From the NCBI GenBank assembly GCA_001003725.1, contig LCPR01000007.1:1-54969 (forward strand): a stretch of DNA of 54,969 bases, given 5' to 3'. Each line of letters opens with the position of its first letter. The stretch's first letter is position 1. The notes under the pieces were generated by a model. It had not been told where the DNA came from, ran no database searches, and saw only the letters and a list, made by a program, of their open reading frames with translations. Source of the DNA: Candidatus Saccharibacteria bacterium GW2011_GWC2_48_9 (GTDB lineage Bacteria > Patescibacteriota > Saccharimonadia > Saccharimonadales > Saccharimonadaceae). Positions 17,236 to 53,637 of this stretch are shown here, one piece after another. A program made the translations under genes and the position numbers.

Positions 17236-17724
17236 TCAATGCTTCTTGCCGTGCTTGTCGCCAGCTCCGCTAGAACGTGTATGCATAATATCGAGCACTG
17301 CAATCACAAGAGCAGCTGTCAAAATATACTGCTGGTACTGCACTATCATCTCAAAGACAGTACGGCTATCACCCATCAGCACCACAGTATGCTCAAGCGC
17401 GCCGAGACTGAATATAACAGCCAGTACTGCGTACAGGATCGAACCAAGCAAACGCCCTTGCTTCGTCTTGTACCGTGGGCCACCAAATAGCAACACGAGA
17501 GATGGAAACAATATCACAAGCAGCGTCAAAAACGTCACAGGCGACACAACACCGAGATCTACTGGCAGCCTAAGTGCTATGTCAGCGATGACATCTTGCC
17601 ACATCACACTAAGCACATACCCGGTTGCAAGTGCGAGACCGAGCACGCCAAACCTACGCTTCGTAATATACGCAAACCCAAATAGTAGCAATACAGCCAA
17701 ACCGATAATTACAATAATGTCCAT
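17236..17724 (-). CDS. Multi-pass membrane protein, CvpA-like by shape
   Basis: 162 residues with about four or five hydrophobic segments (around 3-20, 27-45, 60-82, 92-112 and 128-145). The N-terminus (MDIIVIIGLAVLLLFG, then a basic GFAYITKRRFG turn) is reminiscent of CvpA-type proteins, but I see no decisive motif. The C-terminus is polar and basic (KHGKKH). Start and DUF192 stop share one base (TAATG), so the two are translationally coupled. Confidence 0.7.
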   Translation of the reverse strand: MDIIVIIGLAVLLLFGFAYITKRRFGVLGLALATGYVLSVMWQDVIADIALRLPVDLGVVSPVTFLTLLVILFPSLVLLFGGPRYKTKQGRLLGSILYAVLAVIFSLGALEHTVVLMGDSRTVFEMIVQYQQYILTAALVIAVLDIMHTRSSGAGDKHGKKH

Positions 17725-18209
17725 TATCTATCCCCCTTGTCATTAAATGTTATTGATTGTCCAGATTTAATACTATATTTCTCGACCGACCCAGCCGGGA
17801 GATACAGCACATACCGCGCAGCACCTCCTGGTCGATATACATGACTATTCGACGGCTGAGCATTTTTCGCAATATAAGCGACATTCTTATTGTCCGTGAT
17901 CCACAGGATATCAACAGCAGAATGTAAATCTCGAGCCTGCACTATCCAGCTATCACTTTTTGGATATGCATACAGTAACGCCCGATTATCTTCGAGGACT
18001 CCGCGGTGCTCTGTGATATTTTCGCCAGGCTGCCGCTCTACGTCAACCATATCTGCATGAAACGTTTTAGCACCCAACGTCACAGCAGTTGCAGTCATTG
18101 CGGTTGGCCAAAAACTGTACGCAACAAATGCCACGAGCGTCACGATCACCCCAAAGATACCAATCCACACGAGCCTATGCTCAACGCTCACGCGCGCGCC
18201 ATATTCCAT
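17724..18209 (-). CDS. DUF192 family membrane-anchored protein
   Basis: 161 residues. One N-terminal transmembrane helix (about 13-35) is followed by a DUF192 domain (about 65-155). The family's outline is visible: a GxxxxNRALLYAYP segment, AVDILWITDNKNVAYIAKNAQP and ARYVLYLPAGSVEKYSIKSG. DUF192 domains are small extracytoplasmic beta-barrels of unknown function. Several usual residues (WMKNT) are replaced here. It lies 33 bp after rimK, probably in the same transcript. Confidence 0.82.
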   Translation of the reverse strand: MEYGARVSVEHRLVWIGIFGVIVTLVAFVAYSFWPTAMTATAVTLGAKTFHADMVDVERQPGENITEHRGVLEDNRALLYAYPKSDSWIVQARDLHSAVDILWITDNKNVAYIAKNAQPSNSHVYRPGGAARYVLYLPAGSVEKYSIKSGQSITFNDKGDR

Positions 18210-18242: not shown

Positions 18243-19154
18243 CTATGCGCCGACTTTATCCTTTTTAGGGCGACGCTTTGCATTACGTTCGACATATTCT
18301 ATAACTGCGCCCGCGATATCGCGTTTCGTCACTAGCTCGATACCGAATCCTGGACTTGCGTTCACTTCTAGCACTAGTGGACCACGGTCGCTACGCATCA
18401 TATCGACACCTGCGATATTTAAACCCATAGCTTTCGCTGCCTTTATGGCCATTTTCCGTTCTTCTTCAGTTAGCTTTATCACGGTACCCTCACCACCTTT
18501 GTGAAGGTTTGAGCGAAAATCATCATCAAGACTTTGTCGCTTCATGCTCGCGATTACTCGCCCGCCAACAACCAATGCACGTATATCGGTACCTGCAGAT
18601 TCTTTAATAAATTCCTGCAACAGAATATTCGTTCCGTCTTCATTTGACAAATAAAACGCCTGAAGCACGGATTTGGCAGCTTTTTTTGTTTCGGCAAGCA
18701 CAACGCCGTTACCGTGTGTACCTCTAGCGAGCTTGATAATTACAGGTGTGCCACCAATTTTTTCGATAAGATCGTCAATATCGGTTGAGTTGCGACTGAA
18801 TACTGTCTTTGGAATACCTACACCCGCCTTCGCCAACAACTGTGTGCTACGTAGCTTATCACGTGAGCGTGTGATAGCTATTGAACTCGATGGCGTGTAC
18901 ACACCTTGCATTTCGAGTTGTCGTACAATTGCCGTGCCGTAGCGCGTCATGTGCGCAGCAATACGAGGAATAATTGCGTCGTATCCACTAAGATCTTCAC
19001 CACGATAGCTAACGAGCGGGTTATTTTTTTCAATAGAAGCATAGCACTCACGATACTTTACTACTTTTACGTAGTGTCCACGTTTTTTTGCTTCTTCCTT
19101 TAATCTTTTTGTTGAATAATTGCCGTTTCCGTTTGACAAGATTGCTATACGCAT
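18243..19154 (-). CDS. rimK: RimK-type ATP-grasp amino-acid ligase
   Basis: 303 residues, close to E. coli RimK (300). It has the pre-ATP-grasp N-domain (MRIAILSNG, YDAIIPRIA), then an ATP-grasp fold with VIIKLARGTHGNGV near residue 142, the DIRALVVGGRVIASMKR motif near 196, and the metal-binding VDMMR plus VLEVNASPGFGIE near 258-275. RimK adds glutamates to the C-terminus of ribosomal protein S6 in proteobacteria; the target here is unknown. It starts 2 bp after the RimB/ATP-grasp gene. Confidence 0.92.
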   Translation of the reverse strand: MRIAILSNGNGNYSTKRLKEEAKKRGHYVKVVKYRECYASIEKNNPLVSYRGEDLSGYDAIIPRIAAHMTRYGTAIVRQLEMQGVYTPSSSIAITRSRDKLRSTQLLAKAGVGIPKTVFSRNSTDIDDLIEKIGGTPVIIKLARGTHGNGVVLAETKKAAKSVLQAFYLSNEDGTNILLQEFIKESAGTDIRALVVGGRVIASMKRQSLDDDFRSNLHKGGEGTVIKLTEEERKMAIKAAKAMGLNIAGVDMMRSDRGPLVLEVNASPGFGIELVTKRDIAGAVIEYVERNAKRRPKKDKVGA

Positions 19155-19156
19155 AA

Positions 19157-20488
19157 TTATTTACCTACTTCCCGCAAAAAATATTTCGCCAATTGTTCGT
19201 GCTTTTCCGGCAGAAAAGAACCAGTCGCAAGTTGCGGCCCATCGTTAACCTCTAGAAACAGCCATTCTTGCTTCTCTTCATCCAGTATCGCATCTACACC
19301 CGCGATAGTGCGCCCAAGTACTTCGGCAGCCCGTAAGCTGTCGAGTCGCACCTGTGGCGGCAAATCGTTGACAGGAACGATGGTAGCAGTACCCCCCGCA
19401 GACGTGTTATTGAGATGCGTAGAGTCATCTTTTCGCACCCGGTGAATCACTAACGTAATACGCTTACCAAACACTAATATTCGATGGTCACCTTTATTGT
19501 GTACAAATTTCTGACCAACGAGCATCACATCATTCGTGAGCGCCTCTTGCGCTATCAAGATAAAATCTTCTTCGCTTCGCACAACATTGTTGACATCGCC
19601 CTTACTGGCGTGAATCCCCTTGAGTACAAATGGTAGCCCAAGAAAATCTTTATATTCGACGAATGATTGCGGAGTCTGCGATGGTAGCATAAAGATTGAG
19701 TCAGGCACCCGTAGACGCTCTGTACTCAAAACTGCGTACTGGTATAATTTGCTCATGTCTGGAAAATGACGAATAGCCTCAAGATCTATCACCTTGACGC
19801 CACGAGACCTTGCATAGCGAGCTATTGCAGCGGTCAAATCTCGCGCGACGGATGTTTTAAAATGAACCAAAGTATACTCGCTAACATCACGCTGATACGT
19901 TTTTACAAAAACTCTCATATTCCCTGATTCAAATCGTATGGTTACGTCGCTGTACGTAGCATAGTCAATAGCTAATCTCCCCTGCGCATGATCCTCGATA
20001 TTACGAATCATGCTTGTGACATTGTCGGAATATTTTTGACTAAGTATCAGCATTCGTTTACTGCCCATAGTAGAACTCTTTTTTGATACATCTACATAAA
20101 ACTTACCCTTCAGCGTATTTCTACCGATCAAAATTGGGTAAAGAGTAGTAGATCGATCCGCCAAGGTGAAGGCAACACGGATCTTGCGTCCTTCGATAAT
20201 TGCAGAAAGCTTAACCTTATAACGGTACTCAGTGCCACCAAAAGAGTTCTTGACAGAAACTTGCTCAAAACTATCGGCCGATACATCCATGCCCGTATAG
20301 TGTGCAGACGCAGGACCAAATAATTTAAATGTTAGTATGCCATTTTTTTCTTGTATATCAGTCGCCCATATCGAAGAACTGTCCGCGCCAGTATCTACTT
20401 TCGCCGCAACTCGAACAGCGCCATACGACGGTATATCGATATATGACGTTCTTCCGATGCGATGCTCTGATTTATTCACTTTTACCAT
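19157..20488 (-). CDS. RimB-like retropepsin domain fused to a RimK-like ATP-grasp domain
   Basis: 443 residues. Residues 1-140 are a RimB/DUF785-type aspartic-protease-like domain: RTSYIDIPSYGAVRVAAKVDTGADSSSI (catalytic DTGA at 32-35), the family's VSVKNSFGGTEYRYKV segment, and a final LIGRNTLKGKFYVDVSK. Residues 145-443 form an ATP-grasp domain (LPFVLKGIHASKGDVNNV; DHRILVFGKRITLVIHR; AGVDAILD; FLEVNDGPQLATG). In E. coli rimB and rimK are separate neighbouring genes. The fusion joins a possible eraser with a ligase. It starts 9 bp after DUF1704 and ends 2 bp before rimK. Confidence 0.88.
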   Translation of the reverse strand: MVKVNKSEHRIGRTSYIDIPSYGAVRVAAKVDTGADSSSIWATDIQEKNGILTFKLFGPASAHYTGMDVSADSFEQVSVKNSFGGTEYRYKVKLSAIIEGRKIRVAFTLADRSTTLYPILIGRNTLKGKFYVDVSKKSSTMGSKRMLILSQKYSDNVTSMIRNIEDHAQGRLAIDYATYSDVTIRFESGNMRVFVKTYQRDVSEYTLVHFKTSVARDLTAAIARYARSRGVKVIDLEAIRHFPDMSKLYQYAVLSTERLRVPDSIFMLPSQTPQSFVEYKDFLGLPFVLKGIHASKGDVNNVVRSEEDFILIAQEALTNDVMLVGQKFVHNKGDHRILVFGKRITLVIHRVRKDDSTHLNNTSAGGTATIVPVNDLPPQVRLDSLRAAEVLGRTIAGVDAILDEEKQEWLFLEVNDGPQLATGSFLPEKHEQLAKYFLREVGK

Positions 20489-20497
20489 TATATGTTC

Positions 20498-21841
20498 CTA
20501 TGCTGCAGTTTCCAAACCGAGTAGTGCTGCTTGCTCTGAATCAGTTGGGTCAAACCGTCCAGAAAGATAGATTTTAAGACTTTCCTTACGCTTCTCTGCG
20601 GGCAAACGGGCAATTTGATTGAACCACGGATTTACTTTTTTCGCACCGTTGAAGTACGATATATCTCGAGCGTCTAGTGCGCCACCACGTCGGGTGCGCA
20701 TACACTCTTGGTAGGCTTTACGCTGAGCAGATAGTACATCGATCTCTTTGCCCCCTGTAGCTTGCTCAACCACGATCGATCGATACAGTATATCGTATGT
20801 TTGCCGAAAACTACGCGGCTCAGCATGTTGGTCAAGCCCCTTGCCGAGCCCTAGTGCCAAGAGATAGCGCTGTCCTACTTGTCGAGGCTGGCCAGACATT
20901 ATTTGCTCTATTACCGTCGCTCCACCTTCTTCTATATCAAGCGTAATTGGCTTGCTTACCCTTAGCCGAGGATCTTCTTGTAAGTCGGCATTATGTGAAA
21001 GTAACGCATGGCCAATCGCTTCGTGACAATTCGTTCCATTCATTTGCGCCGTTGACTCAAACACTCTTTCATTTCCATAGTTAAGCCGCTTGGTGTGCTT
21101 GTTTGTGCTAGCAACCTTGCCAGCAACCACAGCTGCGCGCCACCCTACAGAAGTTATGCCCGTTACTTCAAGGATTTTTTGTCCCCATTCTGCTGCCTCT
21201 GTAGCATCGACATCACGATCTTCGTGCGGTGCAAGTGAGCCCTCTAATCCGGGGATAATATCGAAAAGGTCCTCTCGCAGTCGATCAAGCGTCTCTTTGT
21301 GTAGCTCAAAATCAAACGCTTCTCGTGATAACTCAACTTTTTCGCCCGATAAATCGAGCAACTCTCGCGCTTCAGGCAGGGTATCGGCAAGCACCTCTGC
21401 CTTTTCAAGCACACGAGAAAATACCGCATCGAAATCTTGTTGTTCTACTTCGCCAAAGATTTCTTCGTTCATAGACTCGGCGCGACGCATAGACAATGCC
21501 TTATCAATAGCTTCACCCCCTAGACGTCGCCTCACTTCTTTATGGCGAAATAATTCGGCTAGTTTACGTGCGACAGATTCGTACAATACATCGTCAGCAG
21601 CATCGCGAGCTGCCTCAAGAACCTGGAAATATTCTTGTTCGATTGCCACGTAATCAATACCGTGTATCCGCGAATATTCAATCGCTGGATCATCACTTGT
21701 GCCTGCGATGAACTCGTCTCGTACGAGCGTTCGCGATTGATCGTTTTCACCTGGGCTATACCACTCGTTAGAGCTAATCCGCGTAAACTCATGTTCACGA
21801 AAGCGCGTTGCCGGATTTTTATCAATATTTAGACGAGACAT
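20498..21841 (-). CDS. DUF1704/KIAA0895-family metallopeptidase (MATCAP-like)
   Basis: 447 residues from ATG 21841. The zinc motif HEAIGH (His273, Glu274, His278) is followed about 30 residues later by a Glu-rich EEGG element, and near the C-terminus by RTRRGGALDARDISYFNG, the family's conserved end. Eukaryotic relatives (MATCAP, KIAA0895L) are carboxypeptidases that remove tubulin's C-terminal tyrosine. In this setting the enzyme could trim residues added by the ATP-grasp ligases. The in-frame ATG at 21862 is rejected because it lies in the promoter -10 region. The first ~200 residues are helical and acidic. Confidence 0.85.
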   Translation of the reverse strand: MSRLNIDKNPATRFREHEFTRISSNEWYSPGENDQSRTLVRDEFIAGTSDDPAIEYSRIHGIDYVAIEQEYFQVLEAARDAADDVLYESVARKLAELFRHKEVRRRLGGEAIDKALSMRRAESMNEEIFGEVEQQDFDAVFSRVLEKAEVLADTLPEARELLDLSGEKVELSREAFDFELHKETLDRLREDLFDIIPGLEGSLAPHEDRDVDATEAAEWGQKILEVTGITSVGWRAAVVAGKVASTNKHTKRLNYGNERVFESTAQMNGTNCHEAIGHALLSHNADLQEDPRLRVSKPITLDIEEGGATVIEQIMSGQPRQVGQRYLLALGLGKGLDQHAEPRSFRQTYDILYRSIVVEQATGGKEIDVLSAQRKAYQECMRTRRGGALDARDISYFNGAKKVNPWFNQIARLPAEKRKESLKIYLSGRFDPTDSEQAALLGLETAA

Positions 21842-21850
21842 ATTACATAA

Positions 21851-21879
21851 AACATAGCACATTTATAGCAATATGTCAA
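21851..21879 (-). promoter_or_regulatory. Promoter of the DUF1704-RimB/ATP-grasp-rimK unit (leaderless)
   Basis: TTGACA (21879-21874), 17-nt spacer, TATGTT (21856-21851), then 9 nt to the ATG at 21841. A normal -35/-10 pair places the transcription start at or next to the start codon. Confidence 0.6.
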
Positions 21880-21914
21880 TATTTCACCTCTGTGACGAAT
21901 ATATCGTTAAGTCA

Positions 21915-22931
21915 CTATATGTCAGCTAAGTAGTCGACGTATGCGCTCACAGCCCCGCGCGCCTTGCCTCTAGTCGGCTCATCATGAATACACAGCGACG
22001 GCGCTTTATTAACTTCGATAATAACCGCGTATTGATGGTCTCGCTGCATGCTTACACTTGGCGCACCGTCAACAAGGAAGTCGACACCAGCTACTTTGAG
22101 GCCCAAAGTCTCGGCCGCGAGAATTGCTTCTACCTGCATCCATTCAGGAATATCATCTGTAATCTCAATCAATTCACCGCCAGCTCCATAGTTTGCCACA
22201 CCGGTCACCGTCACGTATTCACCTACTGCCGGAATGTCTTGCAGCTTCTCACCAAGAAACATATGAGCACGCTCTACATCTATGCGCGCGAGTTTCGCCC
22301 GGTACGCCTCGCCTCTCTCTGGGTGCTGATTCTCACGGTCGATGAGCGCCTCGATGCTCGATATCCCATCGCCACACACCCTTGCCGGCAACCTATGGAT
22401 AGCAGCAACATAGTGGCCGTCTATAATAAGTACTCGTACATCATACATGGATGCACTTTCAAACTGCTTCTGCAGCAAGACAGATGTTTTTGAGCCCATA
22501 TCCATAATTCGCTTAATAGCGATCTCGAGGCGTTTCGGAGTGTCTACGCTTGTTGTGATGCCATCTCCATGCGAGCCATCGAGCGGCTTTGCCGTAACTG
22601 CTGTATGCGCAGCTAAAAAGCGCTTCATCCCTGCAGTGTCCGCGGCGGCAAATAGACCAACAGGGAGTTGCTCTATCCCTTGAGACGTTAGTACAAACGA
22701 TGTCGCAAATTTATCGTTAGATGTAAGCGCAGTAGCATATAGAGTAGTCGGTGGAACGGTGCTACGAAAATGCAGTTTTTGGCCGTTGTCTTTTTCGATA
22801 TAAAAATCAGCGATGCCCTCGTAGGGAATTGACACTTTCCAGCCACGGGCTAGCATGTCTTTACACAGGAGACGATTTGAAGCGCTCATTCGATCGGCAA
22901 TAGCGTGTGTCACCGCAATCATAGCGCGCAC
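21915..22931 (-). CDS. ATP-grasp ligase related to the cyanophycin synthetase/GshF ATP-grasp domain
   Basis: 338 residues from GTG 22931 (335 from ATG 22922). ATP-grasp features: VTAKPLDGSHGDGI near residue 113, SMYDVRVLIIDGHYVAAIHR near 162, ARVCGDGISSI, ENQHPERGEAYR, then VAGVDFLVD and VIIEVNKAPSL near 300-315. The GDG-x-SI plus ENxxPxR pattern is typical of cyanophycin synthetase and bifunctional glutathione synthetase ATP-grasp modules, but the Mur-ligase and GshA parts are absent. Substrate unknown. It precedes DUF1704 by 73 bp. A GATACT box 5 nt before the GTG supports that start. Confidence 0.88.
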   Translation of the reverse strand: MRAMIAVTHAIADRMSASNRLLCKDMLARGWKVSIPYEGIADFYIEKDNGQKLHFRSTVPPTTLYATALTSNDKFATSFVLTSQGIEQLPVGLFAAADTAGMKRFLAAHTAVTAKPLDGSHGDGITTSVDTPKRLEIAIKRIMDMGSKTSVLLQKQFESASMYDVRVLIIDGHYVAAIHRLPARVCGDGISSIEALIDRENQHPERGEAYRAKLARIDVERAHMFLGEKLQDIPAVGEYVTVTGVANYGAGGELIEITDDIPEWMQVEAILAAETLGLKVAGVDFLVDGAPSVSMQRDHQYAVIIEVNKAPSLCIHDEPTRGKARGAVSAYVDYLADI

Positions 22932-23730: not shown

Positions 23731-26427
23731 CTACCTAATGCTGTTGAAATTCTTGATAGCGAGAAGACGCTCTTTGTTGATTTTCGGCATCGTGCTTGCA
23801 ACCTGAGTATCGGCGAGCGTGTCTGCTGCGGCATCAATGAGGTCTTGCATGCGCTGCCCAAACAGGTCTCTGTCCTCGCGTGTAAGTCCAGCACCTGCCG
23901 GTATCGTATTATCGTGGTACGCCTTCATGACACCCAGAATATCTTCCAGTGCTACAGCGTCAGCCCCAGCAAGCGCTTCGGCCTTAAACTTAGCCTTATT
24001 GACATAGTCGATAATCATACGCTCATAACCACCTGCGCTGTTCGCGTTACCTTGATCAATCCTATCGAGTGCTTGCCCCATAAGGAATGGCGCTTTTGAG
24101 CCATGCGTTGCAATAACACCTTCTTTAATCGTACCGTGTACACTGCGCCACGCTTCTCGGTTATCAGATGCAGCGCGTACGATGTCGGATGCACCTTCGT
24201 AGTTGGTTTCCTTCAGGAACTTAGCCACCGCAGCTTCATGTAGCTCGCTGCCGATTTCGCTTGCGTCAAACTCATACTCTCTACCGCGGGAGTCCTTACC
24301 TTTCGCCACTCCACCGAGCGCAAGATTCTTTAGAGCAGAGTTATCGAGCCCAGCGCTAAAGTGCTTGAGAAGCTCTGTTTGTGCCGATGCGCCTTTGCCA
24401 AAATCTTCTCGTATCTGCTGGGTAGCACGTGCTGTTGCAAGCTTTTCGGCACTTTCGCCGCCAATACCCGCAGCTGCTTGTTGCAATGCTCTACTATCCA
24501 CCATATTGTGCGCATATTCTACTCGATGCGCAGACTCAGCAAATCCTTTTCGAGAATCCTGAATCATATGATCTTGAGCTAATGAGTGGACCTGGTGACC
24601 AAGGCTCGCCGCCACATTGTCGCCGTTACGTGCGTGTAGTTTCGCGCCTTTTTGCGATTCGAGCTCTTTCATATAACCCTCGAACTGCGCTTTGTTGTTG
24701 TGCAGCGACATGTCAGCCATTTGATTCTGCACAGCTTCGCGCTTAGCAGTAGAATTAGTGAGTTTTTGTGCCTCGTACGCAGCGTTGTTTCTGGTCTCCG
24801 CCGCCTTAGCCAGGTCCTCTGCTCTCTGCTGTTCGATAAATGTCTGTGTGCTTTGCGCGGCATAAGCTGCGTTACGGTTCGACTGATATTTTTTGCGCCT
24901 ACCCTCACGGTCACGTTTACCCGTATCAAGTTTTTGCGCAAGTGCAAGACCGGGGGTACTGCCCCAGCCTCGGTTTTTCTCTTGTAATCGTCTATCTTTG
25001 GCTTCGTCGAGACGTGCCTGGCTCGCGTTCTTCGCTCGGTCACCCAGACCCTTAGCAGGGTTGTTGACCATACCGGCAATACGTCCAAGCAAGCTACCGC
25101 TAAACTTGATGAGAAACGGCGTAATAACAAGTGGCGCCACTTGGATAAACATCGCAAATATAATAACAAGGAAACTCGTGGCGTTCTGCGCAATGATGGT
25201 TGCCGCAAGCTGTGAACCGCCAAAAAGCATGGCAAACATCGGATACATTATAAGCATCGTCATAAACACATCTTTCCATTTGTCAAAGTACTTTTGTGTG
25301 CTTGGCAAGATGAACGCCGCAAATGCGAGCGGTGCGAGCACGATCAGCACCGTAATAAGTGCGTAACGTGCTGCGAGTATAACCACAACCACCAGTACCG
25401 CGATAACCGCCGATATCAACATCGGCACCAACAAATAGATAGATGCCGCACCGTATGCACTTGCTGCAAAAAACGCCGCCGCGCCTGCTGCGCCTATCGT
25501 GCCGCCAGAAAGTGCGTACGTAGTGATACTCGACCAGGTTGACGCACTAGTGACGTCATTTGGTGCGAGTTCTTTTCTGATATTATTGAATACATCCTGT
25601 AAACTACTGCCAATAACGTTCGACAAGTCAACCGCGCCAGCACAAATTATGTACGATGCATTGATCAGGACCGCCGCGACGATGATACGGGGGATTATGC
25701 CTCTCAGGTCATACTGTTTAACACCTTGGTTAGTGATATACGAATAAATAATTACCAAAAACCCAATCACGAACATCACATTGGCAATCGCCAACATGTA
25801 CGACCAGGCCTTGTAAAGTCCGTTGTCGGTATCTGTTGAGAGTGGCGTCACGTGAAGAAAACGCTTCAATACGTCGTAGACCTTGTCCATTGTATCGGCT
25901 AAAAAGTTCATAAATGGACACACTACGTAGCCAATGCCATTGACCACGCACGATGTCTCCTCTTGCGCTCCGCCACCCTCTACCGAGGACTGCGCGTCTA
26001 TCGAAACGCCTGTAGGGTTCGTACAGTTGCTATATTCATCTTGAGAAGTGCGGGTATTGAGCTCACAACTAAACACTTGTGCATTAGTGGCGTCTTCGAC
26101 ACTGTCGCCTGGACCAAAAGTCACGAACTTCGCCTGCGATACATCATCTGGCGCGTCGGCATCACCTTGTTCTATATACTGATAGTACTGCGAATTTTCG
26201 GGCACACCGAGGCGCTGACTCATTTCACGATCAACGGTAGTGGGGCCTTGATAGCTATTATCTTGGTAGACGATGCTACCAGACTCCCATGTGGCATCAG
26301 CCGCATGGGCAGCTGGAGTAAAAATGATTGCCCAAAGCAATGTCGCGCTGAGCACGAGCAAAAAATTTAGGGCATACCGCATCAGCGACACACCCCCCAA
26401 ACGTGGTCTAGTTAAGTTTTCCCACAT
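23731..26427 (-). CDS. VirB6/TrbL-like polytopic membrane protein (type IV secretion-related)
   Basis: 898 residues. A signal-type helix (MRYALNFLLVLSATLL..., ending AHA) is followed by an extracytoplasmic Cys-containing segment, then a block of about 6-7 transmembrane helices (about 165-450) with long Ala/Val/Ile-rich spans as in VirB6/TrbL. The final ~430 residues are soluble, Ala/Glu/Arg-rich and probably helical. No virB4, virD4 or other secretion genes are in the window. ATG 26427 is the annotated start; an in-frame ATG at 26382 with a G-rich ribosome binding site would give a cleaner signal peptide. Confidence 0.7.
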   Translation of the reverse strand: MWENLTRPRLGGVSLMRYALNFLLVLSATLLWAIIFTPAAHAADATWESGSIVYQDNSYQGPTTVDREMSQRLGVPENSQYYQYIEQGDADAPDDVSQAKFVTFGPGDSVEDATNAQVFSCELNTRTSQDEYSNCTNPTGVSIDAQSSVEGGGAQEETSCVVNGIGYVVCPFMNFLADTMDKVYDVLKRFLHVTPLSTDTDNGLYKAWSYMLAIANVMFVIGFLVIIYSYITNQGVKQYDLRGIIPRIIVAAVLINASYIICAGAVDLSNVIGSSLQDVFNNIRKELAPNDVTSASTWSSITTYALSGGTIGAAGAAAFFAASAYGAASIYLLVPMLISAVIAVLVVVVILAARYALITVLIVLAPLAFAAFILPSTQKYFDKWKDVFMTMLIMYPMFAMLFGGSQLAATIIAQNATSFLVIIFAMFIQVAPLVITPFLIKFSGSLLGRIAGMVNNPAKGLGDRAKNASQARLDEAKDRRLQEKNRGWGSTPGLALAQKLDTGKRDREGRRKKYQSNRNAAYAAQSTQTFIEQQRAEDLAKAAETRNNAAYEAQKLTNSTAKREAVQNQMADMSLHNNKAQFEGYMKELESQKGAKLHARNGDNVAASLGHQVHSLAQDHMIQDSRKGFAESAHRVEYAHNMVDSRALQQAAAGIGGESAEKLATARATQQIREDFGKGASAQTELLKHFSAGLDNSALKNLALGGVAKGKDSRGREYEFDASEIGSELHEAAVAKFLKETNYEGASDIVRAASDNREAWRSVHGTIKEGVIATHGSKAPFLMGQALDRIDQGNANSAGGYERMIIDYVNKAKFKAEALAGADAVALEDILGVMKAYHDNTIPAGAGLTREDRDLFGQRMQDLIDAAADTLADTQVASTMPKINKERLLAIKNFNSIR

Positions 26428-50548: not shown

Positions 50549-52303
50549 TCACTCGCTACCTAGTGCAGCAGCAAGCCCAGCGACGACACGCCTGCGAACC
50601 GTCTGGATATTTACCTCTCTTTTAGAATCTTTTTTAAGTTTTCGCTGAATGTCCTCTATAGTATTTACCCCAAGCGCCGTGATAGTGAAGAGATCAAAGA
50701 CGTGCCTCGTTTCTTCGTCTTCGTTGATTTTACAGCCCGGCTCACGAGCTTTCTGCTGTAAAATATTGAGAACTTCACGAGTTGTGTCGTCGATATCTTT
50801 CGATAGACCTTCTTGCTCCCCAAGCGCTCTGAGTTTCAGCAGTTCCACCTGGTAACTCGCAAAAATCTTGCGCGTAACTATCGATTCAAAGAAACGATCG
50901 ACTGCTGCTCTCCACTCTTGTTGGCCGAGTTTTTGATGATCTTTAGCTACCTGGAACAGATCGATGGACGGCGGAGTAACCTGCAATTCAGCGGCTCTTC
51001 TTGGTGTTGATAGCTGCTCTGTTGGGATTGGAGGCGTAGGTATAGGAGCTACCCGTTCCTGCAGCTTCACGCCGCCGAGCACGTGCTTATCTTTAATTGC
51101 GACCTCAAACAGCCTATTCAAATGATCCATCACCTGCTCTTCGTTGGTTTGGTGATTGTATTTTAGTAGCTTCGGCAGTGTGCGAGGCTTTTGGTTGGAA
51201 CTTCGCATGACACTGTCGGCCAAGTTACGGAGCACTTTGTATGCATTCTCACTGATCACCCCGATATTGCCTCTAGCGCCCCCCCTGTTGGGTGCATACT
51301 TACTCATAATTTCATTTAATAAACTCGCACCCCTACTCATACGTTCGACATCAAAGTCATCTTCCACAAGTAGCGCCTGCAGGCTTTCTACGAGCGCATT
51401 GTCTTGATCTGTAAGCTCGTCCAAGAGTTCGTCGAAACGCTCGCTAACATCTTGCTGAGACCCACTCTCTTGCAGTTTAATGTCAAGGGAGGTGTCGTCA
51501 GGAGTGGGTTCATTTGCAGTATCCTGGCGTGTAGCGCCTTCATCTGCGACAGATACGTCTCTTTCTATAGATTCAGGCCGAATGCGCTTCATTATATCGG
51601 GCATGCCCAGCGTGTCGTGTTGAGAATTTTCTATACAGCGTGTAGCGAAACTTTTCCATTTTTGCCATGCAGCAGCGCTTGTGACACGCAGGCTCTTGGC
51701 AATCTCTTTTTGCGACGCGCCGTCGTACACACCCTCGAGCATTTGCACAAACGTCTCAGGAATACCGCGTGGACCAAGAGAGCCACGCACTTCCATAAGC
51801 GTACGCACAATAACATCCTTGTCACCCGCAGTTAGCCCAAGCTGTGCACTCGCACCTTCACCTAGCATTGCATCTAGTAAGTCGCTGATTCTCGTATCCA
51901 CACTGAAATCATTTTCAATTTCGTTTGCGGTACGCGCGATCTCAGTAGTAGTATCGGATTGTTTTTCCGTCGGCTTCGTATTTTCGACTCTTGGTACTTC
52001 GACGGCGAGTGATTCTACCCGGGGGTTCGGCTCACTCGCAATATCTGCCATAAACAACGATTCAGACGGCACCGCCTCGATCTTCGGAGTATCGACGGCA
52101 CTATCTGCATCAAATAACTCGAGTAGCTCCGCAGCGCGAACCAGATATTGTGCTCGACGCGAAAGATTGTCTTCGTGTTGCAGCTGTGTAAAGAAACGTT
52201 CGCTCGCTTCTTTACCAAGATGTTTCGATACACTGCGCCGGAGTAATTCATCGGTAGATAACTCCGGCGATGAGTGAATAAATTCGCTTGAAATTGCCGA
52301 CAT
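50549..52303 (-). CDS. Large protein with two helix-turn-helix-like regions, function unknown
   Basis: 584 residues. Residues around 150-230 (LTAGDKDVIVRTLMEVRG, then GASQKEIAKSLRVTSAAAWQKWKSF) look like a sigma region 4-type helix-turn-helix. A second candidate is near the C-terminus (NTIEDIQRKLKKDSKREVNIQTVRRRVVAG). The intervening sequence is acidic and probably disordered. DNA or RNA binding is likely; no family is recognised. GGAG lies 6 nt before the ATG, and a short upstream ORF ends TAATG over it. It follows the ParB-like gene. Confidence 0.7.
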   Translation of the reverse strand: MSAISSEFIHSSPELSTDELLRRSVSKHLGKEASERFFTQLQHEDNLSRRAQYLVRAAELLELFDADSAVDTPKIEAVPSESLFMADIASEPNPRVESLAVEVPRVENTKPTEKQSDTTTEIARTANEIENDFSVDTRISDLLDAMLGEGASAQLGLTAGDKDVIVRTLMEVRGSLGPRGIPETFVQMLEGVYDGASQKEIAKSLRVTSAAAWQKWKSFATRCIENSQHDTLGMPDIMKRIRPESIERDVSVADEGATRQDTANEPTPDDTSLDIKLQESGSQQDVSERFDELLDELTDQDNALVESLQALLVEDDFDVERMSRGASLLNEIMSKYAPNRGGARGNIGVISENAYKVLRNLADSVMRSSNQKPRTLPKLLKYNHQTNEEQVMDHLNRLFEVAIKDKHVLGGVKLQERVAPIPTPPIPTEQLSTPRRAAELQVTPPSIDLFQVAKDHQKLGQQEWRAAVDRFFESIVTRKIFASYQVELLKLRALGEQEGLSKDIDDTTREVLNILQQKAREPGCKINEDEETRHVFDLFTITALGVNTIEDIQRKLKKDSKREVNIQTVRRRVVAGLAAALGSE

Positions 52304-52362
52304 TACACGCTCCTCGCCTGGCTTTTACAGTCAATGGTAGCTGCTCGCTCACGATCGCGCAT
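52303..52362 (-). CDS. Putative 19-codon leader peptide
   Basis: ATG 52362 has GGGAG 6 nt upstream and the frame ends with TAA overlapping the next ATG (TAATG). The peptide MRDRERAATIDCKSQARSV is basic and not hydrophobic. It could couple translation to the 584-residue gene or be an attenuator. No terminator/antiterminator is seen, so this is tentative. Confidence 0.4.
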   Translation of the reverse strand: MRDRERAATIDCKSQARSV

Positions 52363-52437
52363 GCGTTTCTCCCTTGGTGCGTTACTTTTTGTCAATGTAC
52401 CAATATTTGCTGCAGGCCGCAATACAATAGGCAAATT

Positions 52438-53637
52438 TTACAGCAAATAGCCCTGGTGATCTGGCGTGACGGCCGGTTGCGCCAACAGCTTCGCCTGATC
52501 GACCAGAGCTGCCAGTCGCGCTATCATGTCTGGGTGTAGTTGACCCTGCTTCTCGAGCAAGTCAAGTGTATGAATCGCCGTACCAGCCAAAGCCGATGAG
52601 CTTTTTTGACGTCGCACACTCACTGGCTCCTCTATTACAAATAGTTCTTCGGTCTGCAGCCTCAGTTCACCGCGGGCTGTGGCAATCTCTGCCGACAGTC
52701 GTACATCAATGTCGTGCGCACTCCTCCCCTTTAGCCGCATCTGTGTTAGCGAATTGGCTAGCATAGCAAGCAAGGCGGTAACATACTGCTGCTTAGTCTC
52801 TTGCATAGTGGAATACTCGGCACGCCTGCTGTAGCGTTCTTCATATAGCGCGACTAAAACCCCCATGCGCGCAACCAGACTAAATGGCAGTACAGGTCGA
52901 TCACCCGATGTTATGCCATTTTCATCTGCCACGTATTCACGTATTTCTTTCGGTAATCTATCGAAGGCAATCGCGCTTGCGACTTTCGACTCGCTACAAC
53001 CAAACTGGTGCGCCACCGCCTGCAATGTAACGGGTCGTCCGGCTGCTTGTTCGACTTTGTAGTAATTACTGATAACCTTTGCTTCGTCGACCGCAGGCGG
53101 GCGTTGACTGATGTTTTCGGCATATTGTTTTCTCTGTGCTTCGTGTAGTGATAAGTTCTCGTGGATTGTCGAACCTACATAGAGTTTGTCAAGTTCAAAG
53201 TCGTATTCCTTGGCGATCAATTCTAGCGCACGCCGACGGCGATGCCCGCTTATAAGCACCAATGTATCCTGGTCATCTTGAGGAATATATTCAGGCTCCC
53301 CTGTATCGTAATACCGTGCATGATCTGATACATAAACCGACAAGTGATCTGCATCAAGCCTATTGAGTATCAATGGATGACTCAAATCAAGTGCTCGACT
53401 GATAGCAACGTAGTCTTGCGCTTGCGCTGCTTGGTGCAGTTCATCGGGATGTGTCACAATCGAACGGGCCAGCTCTTCGATACCTCTTTCGTCGTACTCT
53501 TGCCGAATTTGCGTGAGCTCATGAACAGAGGAAAGTTGCACAAAAATCAAATTCGCTGGGCCAACTTCAATACGCTCACCCTCAAAACCCGTGCGCTCAT
53601 GGTATGGCATCGTATGTCGTGTACTTTTTGGCTCCAT
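52438..53637 (-). CDS. ParB/RepB/Spo0J-like nuclease-domain protein
   Basis: 399 residues. The ParB N-terminal domain has LVLISGHRRRRALELIA near residue 127 (ParB box II) and the ENISQRPPAVDEAKVISNYY stretch near 174. A central HTH follows (VTLQAVAHQFGCSESKVASAI). The rest is helical. Canonical ParB works with ParA in chromosome segregation; no parA or origin is nearby. It may be a plasmid- or element-type ParB-like regulator, or a CTP-dependent DNA-binding protein acting with the next gene. Confidence 0.85.
   Translation of the reverse strand: MEPKSTRHTMPYHERTGFEGERIEVGPANLIFVQLSSVHELTQIRQEYDERGIEELARSIVTHPDELHQAAQAQDYVAISRALDLSHPLILNRLDADHLSVYVSDHARYYDTGEPEYIPQDDQDTLVLISGHRRRRALELIAKEYDFELDKLYVGSTIHENLSLHEAQRKQYAENISQRPPAVDEAKVISNYYKVEQAAGRPVTLQAVAHQFGCSESKVASAIAFDRLPKEIREYVADENGITSGDRPVLPFSLVARMGVLVALYEERYSRRAEYSTMQETKQQYVTALLAMLANSLTQMRLKGRSAHDIDVRLSAEIATARGELRLQTEELFVIEEPVSVRRQKSSSALAGTAIHTLDLLEKQGQLHPDMIARLAALVDQAKLLAQPAVTPDHQGYLL

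Follow-up and report, generated by a model that had tools for sequence, protein, structure and literature searches.

In the RimABK system of Pseudomonas, which acts on ribosomal protein S6 (RpsF), RimB takes glutamates off RpsF that has been polyglutamylated and boosts the poly-glutamate synthesis of RimK, which is under cyclic di-GMP (c-di-GMP) control, and RimK and RimB together yield free poly-α-glutamate; RimBK hybrid proteins also exist, in Desulfotalea and mostly in Flavobacteriales and Rhodobacterales (PMC11957791). The rlo operon of Pseudomonas aeruginosa brings together a retropepsin, an ATP-grasp protein and an inactive seven-transmembrane (7TM) transglutaminase, which are genetically coupled (PMC12239564), and the peptidases TMCP1 (MATCAP) and TMCP2 strip tubulin of C-terminal residues and of polyglutamylation, acting as deglutamylases (PMC10499314). 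Here we describe a four-gene locus at 18243–22931 on the minus strand of a 54,969-nucleotide stretch of contig LCPR01000007.1 from Candidatus Saccharibacteria bacterium GW2011_GWC2_48_9 (the window, referring to the whole stretch), in which RimK and a retropepsin are accompanied by a metallocarboxypeptidase of the MATCAP family. Since RimK, retropepsin and MATCAP are found together and even fused across the phylum, we consider it probable that the locus encodes one reversible C-terminal tail-tagging system built on a RimK/RimB core, with MATCAP as a second eraser. To our knowledge, bacterial MATCAP (DUF1704) proteins have no established role.

Four open reading frames fill this interval, and together with matches in Pfam and NCBIfam they bear out an earlier note on the window, which had placed here adjacent genes for a cyanophycin/GshF-like ATP-grasp ligase, a DUF1704/MATCAP-like peptidase, a RimB-like retropepsin fused to a second ATP-grasp domain, and a RimK-type ligase. 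Three of these form a unit which, read from the promoter side, consists of MATCAP (20498–21862 as the longest open reading frame; PF08014), the retropepsin–ATP-grasp fusion (19157–20488; 443 aa; PF05618 and then RimK_fam) and RimK (18243–19154; 303 aa; NF007764, PF08443 and Rimk_N). The spacing of 2–9 bp claimed for them is what we measured, with 2 bp between RimK and the fusion and 9 bp between the fusion and MATCAP, and the fourth gene (21915–22931; GTG start; TIGR02068) lies at least 52 bp from MATCAP.

RimK, presumably the main writer, is identified as an α-L-glutamate ligase by its matches to PF08443 (E 3e-60) and the Rimk_N domain, and by a score of 344.2 bits against NCBIfam NF007764 'S6--L-glutamate ligase', for which the curated equivalog cut-off is 331. 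When it is aligned along its entire length with RimK 4iwx and with Pseudomonas 7qyr (E 1e-98), the ATP-grasp motifs RSRDKLRS, KLxxGTxGxGVV, QE(F/Y)IKE and LEVNASPG are all kept, and it is 60–86% identical over most of the order to which the host belongs (Saccharimonadales).

The N-terminal part of the fusion (aa 1–140; 20069–20488) is a RimB/RloA-type retropepsin domain with a catalytic DTGA, presumably an endo-acting eraser, which matches PF05618 over aa 25–138 (E 1e-13, above the cut-off). Its best NCBIfam matches are RloA3/RimB (NF052264/NF052261) at 46–47 bits, and because the curated RimB and RloA equivalogs need 200–210 bits, we classify the domain by sequence as a member of the superfamily and not as a named RimB or RloA. 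Relatives carry DTGA or DSGA, with D32, G34, A35, R112, G122, V132 and D133 invariant among 19 sequences. The rest of the fusion (aa 141–443; 19157–20068; TIGR00768) is the second ATP-grasp domain, a presumed second writer or regulator, which scores 65.7 bits over aa 172–421 against a TIGR00768/rimK_fam cut-off of 143.4 and keeps the metal-binding E-x-N (FLEVNDGP) when aligned to RimK 7qys; we take it to be RimK-like and not a RimK equivalog. The fusion thus resembles the RimBK hybrids in having the retropepsin N-terminal to the ATP-grasp, but is not one of them, as its ATP-grasp is a divergent RimK relative with a separate true RimK next door. Elsewhere in the order the retropepsin is found as a separate protein, N-terminal to an ATP-grasp (as in the window, also in L032 and L033) or C-terminal to one (L039 and L052), and it is also C-terminal in L099–L107; the window fusion is one of several arrangements, which goes beyond what the earlier note had seen. 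Retropepsin–RimK open reading frames resembling the classic hybrids occur in four genomes (G086, G105, G128 and G148), and a scan with the retropepsin–ATP-grasp fusion as query found no relative.

MATCAP, the presumed exo-acting eraser, exceeds the PF08014 cut-off of 27 bits marginally (30.7 bits) and has the HExxxH motif in the form HEAIGH, an EEG with the third ligand, and an R..RG..KD..Y block. Human TMCP1 has metal-site motifs of the same HExxxH and EEG type (PMC10499314), and the profile of the family matches human KIAA0895L in the PDB (7z5g, E 9e-11). H273, E274, H278 and E305 (counted from the ATG at 21841) are invariant in alignments of 31 and 35 sequences, and the catalytic residues of both MATCAP and the retropepsin, on which the earlier note's proposal depended, are conserved in relatives. 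An apparent loss of the motif in the three closest MATCAP relatives (L031–L033) was rejected, as HEATH, HEGWH and HELIH are HExxH with one residue fewer than the HExxxH of the window and most others. A predicted model (predicted local distance difference test, pLDDT, 73), built from the window protein plus sequences of related loci, ranks human MATCAP first (VIA-align Z 15.0 over 258 residues, root-mean-square deviation 4.0), with DUF885-type proteins (Z 13.6) and M32 carboxypeptidases (Z 9.7) as runners-up, and a Foldseek search of the PDB with this model gave nothing below E 0.19. Because Z values of 13–14 can occur among helical proteins, which limits the fold match, it is the sequence evidence that carries the identity, and on this evidence, with the predicted fold in agreement, we assign the window protein to the MATCAP family. 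Like the MATCAP/TMCP enzymes that oppose the TTLL ligases in the tubulin code, it belongs to a peptidase family with HExxxH and EEG and is set against ATP-dependent glutamate ligases; unlike them it is bacterial, with no tubulin known, its ligases are RimK-type and it is only 17% identical over the structural match.

In a sample of 149 genomes of the order, RimK is present in 120 (at least 54% identical), the retropepsin in 115 (plus one weak fragment) and MATCAP in 51, the last counted with a family profile because a genome scan with PF08014 misses the window's own MATCAP. RimK and retropepsin occur together in 114 genomes, RimK only in six, retropepsin only in one (at a contig end) and neither in 28 (Fisher p 2e-23), and the retropepsin adjoins RimK at all 20 RimK loci taken from MATCAP-less genomes. 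MATCAP and RimK lie no more than 6.5 kb apart in 35 of the 46 genomes that have both, on the same strand in 35/35, where genes placed at random in a genome of 0.9 Mb would come this close with a chance of ~1–2% each; the association is far above chance. As MATCAP identity is often near 20%, the arrangement appears to be old or to have been re-formed. The earlier note had tied its proposal to all four genes recurring together in relatives, and RimK, retropepsin and MATCAP do so, but the fourth gene is a neighbour that can be missing and not a fixed member.

A scan of 240 Patescibacteria genomes found PF08014 in 50, of which 43 lie beyond the order. At 20 loci outside the order, hand-picked to span families, MATCAP is fused to an ATP-grasp in eight and lies within 1.4 kb of one in ten. 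The fusions are proteins of ~790 aa in which an ATP-grasp (PF14397) is followed by a middle region and then by MATCAP; hhalign identifies this middle part as a diverged retropepsin (probability 95.9, E 6e-9; controls 0.1). ATP-grasp, retropepsin-like and MATCAP domains are therefore joined in single proteins in other Patescibacteria, an arrangement that the earlier note did not include. When these fusions served as the seed for scanning named genomes, which biases the outcome toward fusions, 80 loci (L159–L238) were obtained, mostly from Peregrinibacteria, Peribacteria and Gracilibacteria, where such proteins are widespread. At these loci 71 of 72 complete MATCAP genes are joined to an ATP-grasp, a 7TM-transglutaminase gene (PF14402) lies within 1 kb in 68, and the exact aspartic motif D[TS]G remains in eight, having mostly been lost (for example, the fusion at L159 7001–8044 and upstream stands beside a 7TM-transglutaminase gene). 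At other Patescibacteria loci a 7TM-transglutaminase gene, an ATP-grasp–retropepsin fusion and MATCAP as a gene of its own stand side by side, joined in L099 by an N-formylglutamate amidohydrolase. On alphaproteobacterial plasmids a MATCAP relative (QEGLA, DUF1704) lies between an N-formylglutamate amidohydrolase and a glutathione-synthetase-like ATP-grasp (L156 and L157); this triad, like the window locus, sets a MATCAP-family protein beside an ATP-grasp ligase, but it has no annotated RimK or retropepsin and includes the amidohydrolase. The parts, their intact catalytic motifs, the tight gene order, its conservation and the repeated fusion can all be read directly from these genomes.

Such arrangements bear on the alternative that survives best, in which the locus carries out ordinary RimK–RimB modification of S6, and MATCAP and the extra ATP-grasps are unrelated genes that share the dnaJ–rimK interval as a site tolerant of insertions. 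This interval is indeed variable, and holds Mur-ligase-like and glycosyltransferase genes as well as GGDEF (diguanylate cyclase) genes, the latter in or near it in 12 of 51 loci (L035, L038, L052, L053, L056, L059, L060, L242, L244, L249, L254 and L257); RimK with the retropepsin alone is also common, and MATCAP is absent from two thirds of the genomes. However, a shared insertion site does not explain why MATCAP near RimK is always on the same strand, nor its fusion to ATP-grasp and retropepsin-like domains in other neighbourhoods elsewhere in the phylum, nor the alphaproteobacterial triads, and we regard this explanation as unlikely.

The fourth gene, an optional third writer if it belongs here, resembles above all the ligase half of cyanophycin synthetase or GshF and has the metal site IIEVNKAP. 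Its match to TIGR02068 (161 bits) covers model positions 195–470 of 862 only, and with no Mur-ligase half it is not a cyanophycin synthetase, which has both halves. It was present in only some relatives when 45 loci of the order were compared by profile, and it may be either a component of the system or a gene that just occupies the same site. Extra ATP-grasps are found near RimK in 17 of 25 MATCAP loci and in 7 of 20 RimK loci without MATCAP (p 0.038). Separately, we note that several loci (L035 8866–10131, L038, L045, L054 and L056) have an ATP-grasp resembling L-amino-acid ligases (PF13535/LAL_C2) next to the cluster, in many cases encoded on the other strand, and that a Mur-ligase-like protein has this position in L049 (8002–9252).

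These ligases could instead be engaged in peptide or polymer synthesis, making poly-glutamate or a cyanophycin-like product that the peptidases mobilise or trim, with no protein tagged at all. The match of the fourth gene to half of cyanophycin synthetase, the free poly-α-glutamate produced by RimK with RimB (PMC11957791) and the L-amino-acid-ligase-like ATP-grasps near relatives are in keeping with this, but the Mur-ligase half is missing, the cyanophycin-like gene is optional, and RimK, which forms the conserved core, is a ligase of protein tails in the cases characterised, so that we think polymer synthesis distinctly improbable. An envelope-directed system that modifies a cell-wall or surface substrate would suit the company that MATCAP keeps in other Patescibacteria, where 7TM_transglut (PF14402) and ATP-grasp (PF14397) make up the rlo set (PMC12239564), but it is very unlikely for the window, where the ligase is a true RimK and where no 7TM_transglut was found among the Pfam-scanned neighbours, nor within 6 kb of RimK at 45 Saccharibacteria loci of the order searched by profile. 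The window locus is like the rlo operon in combining a retropepsin with an ATP-grasp, and relatives with MATCAP elsewhere in the Patescibacteria include genes similar to rloB and rloC, but it lacks the 7TM transglutaminase, has RimK instead of RloC, and adds MATCAP.

For the reversible tail-tagging system that we favour, we infer each reaction, and the sharing of one substrate by the enzymes, by analogy with characterised relatives. RimK would extend a protein's C-terminal carboxylate with glutamates, or make poly-glutamate, the retropepsin domain would cut glutamate tails internally and so remove blocks, and MATCAP would trim C-terminal residues singly, in the way that its relatives in animals process tubulin tails, deglutamylation included. 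The second ATP-grasp fused to the retropepsin and the optional cyanophycin-like ligase would probably add further or different residues to this tail, or regulate RimK, and the co-enrichment of extra ATP-grasps with MATCAP suggests that MATCAP would remove the residues these ligases add. The earlier note's logic of ligases as writers and peptidases as erasers finds support in the domain assignments, the operon, the conserved residues and the co-occurrence. The two peptidases may also be able to stand in for each other, as is suggested by the loss of the aspartic motif in the MATCAP fusions and by the frequency with which MATCAP adjoins RimK among RimK-positive genomes, which is 4 of 6 where the retropepsin is missing and 31 of 114 where it is present (p 0.059).

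By homology, ribosomal S6 would be the default substrate, and nothing in the analysis points to the host-derived peptide that had been offered as another. The locus is like the Pseudomonas RimABK system in that a RimK equivalog adjoins a RimB-type retropepsin and GGDEF genes are near in some relatives, which fits with c-di-GMP control of RimK as in Pseudomonas, but MATCAP and one or two additional ATP-grasps are present here as well, and the host S6 is without a terminal Glu. S6 tails in the order are Glu-rich, and neither the C-terminal residue nor the Glu content differs significantly with the presence of RimK; there is also no link between a non-acidic S6 end and the presence of MATCAP.

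Several observations weigh against a single reversible tagging system. S6 ends in Glu in 31 of 48 RimK-positive and 11 of 23 RimK-negative genomes (p 0.21), and the host's own S6 ends in EEK. Only one genome in three (51/149) has MATCAP, and where RimK is present too (46 genomes), the two are far apart or on different contigs in 11. The p values for extra ATP-grasps near MATCAP clusters (0.038) and for MATCAP beside retropepsin-less RimK (0.059) are weak, and the association tests ignore shared ancestry. Finally, the MATCAP sequences are strongly diverged, and with only ~20% identity their specificity cannot be carried over from the tubulin enzymes.

Expression of the three-gene unit from the single promoter that had been proposed is only plausible. 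The site, TTGACA-17-TATGTT with a TG before the -10 box, is present at 21879–21851 on the minus strand as a consensus match, but the density of promoter-like matches in the region (16, compared with 10.3 ± 4.0 by chance) is not clearly above expectation. Because the -10 box overlaps the first MATCAP ATG (21862), translation more likely starts at the ATG at 21841. The -10 box ends ~10 bases ahead of this second ATG, which suggests a nearly leaderless MATCAP mRNA.

Directly downstream of RimK is a DUF192 gene (17724–18209, minus strand; PF02643), which the neighbourhood comparison found to be a conserved neighbour of RimK in the order, and this is followed by a gene for a 162-aa protein. Upstream are genes for proteins of 174 and 898 aa, dnaJ and, farther away, dnaK, and the wider neighbours include comEC-like, yebC-like, ruvC, murJ, ftsH and lepA genes. 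The 898-aa protein (23731–26427) had no Pfam match at the thresholds used, and neither did a 584-aa and a 399-aa protein encoded at 50549–53637. The source genome is 1.07 Mb in 39 contigs and 98% complete.

As far as the literature searched shows, the RimK–RimB core is known and the MATCAP partner is new: no paper naming both MATCAP and RimK was found in the open-access literature, a scope outside which most subscription journals fall. Earlier comparative-genomics work on ATP-grasp neighbourhoods may already have recorded DUF1704 neighbours. More tentatively, and with somewhat less than even confidence, we suggest that there is a phylum-wide tail code in Patescibacteria in which ATP-grasps write, the retropepsin clips, and MATCAP trims and in some lineages replaces a decaying retropepsin. 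The operon and the fusion partners give bacterial MATCAP a testable role, the removal of residues added by RimK-type ligases. If this is true, bacterial members of the family that includes the animal tubulin-tail erasers were already opposing tail-adding ligases, and the system would link the RimK/RimB switch of bacteria to tubulin-code enzymes and bring protein-tail modification into very small bacteria that depend on a host.

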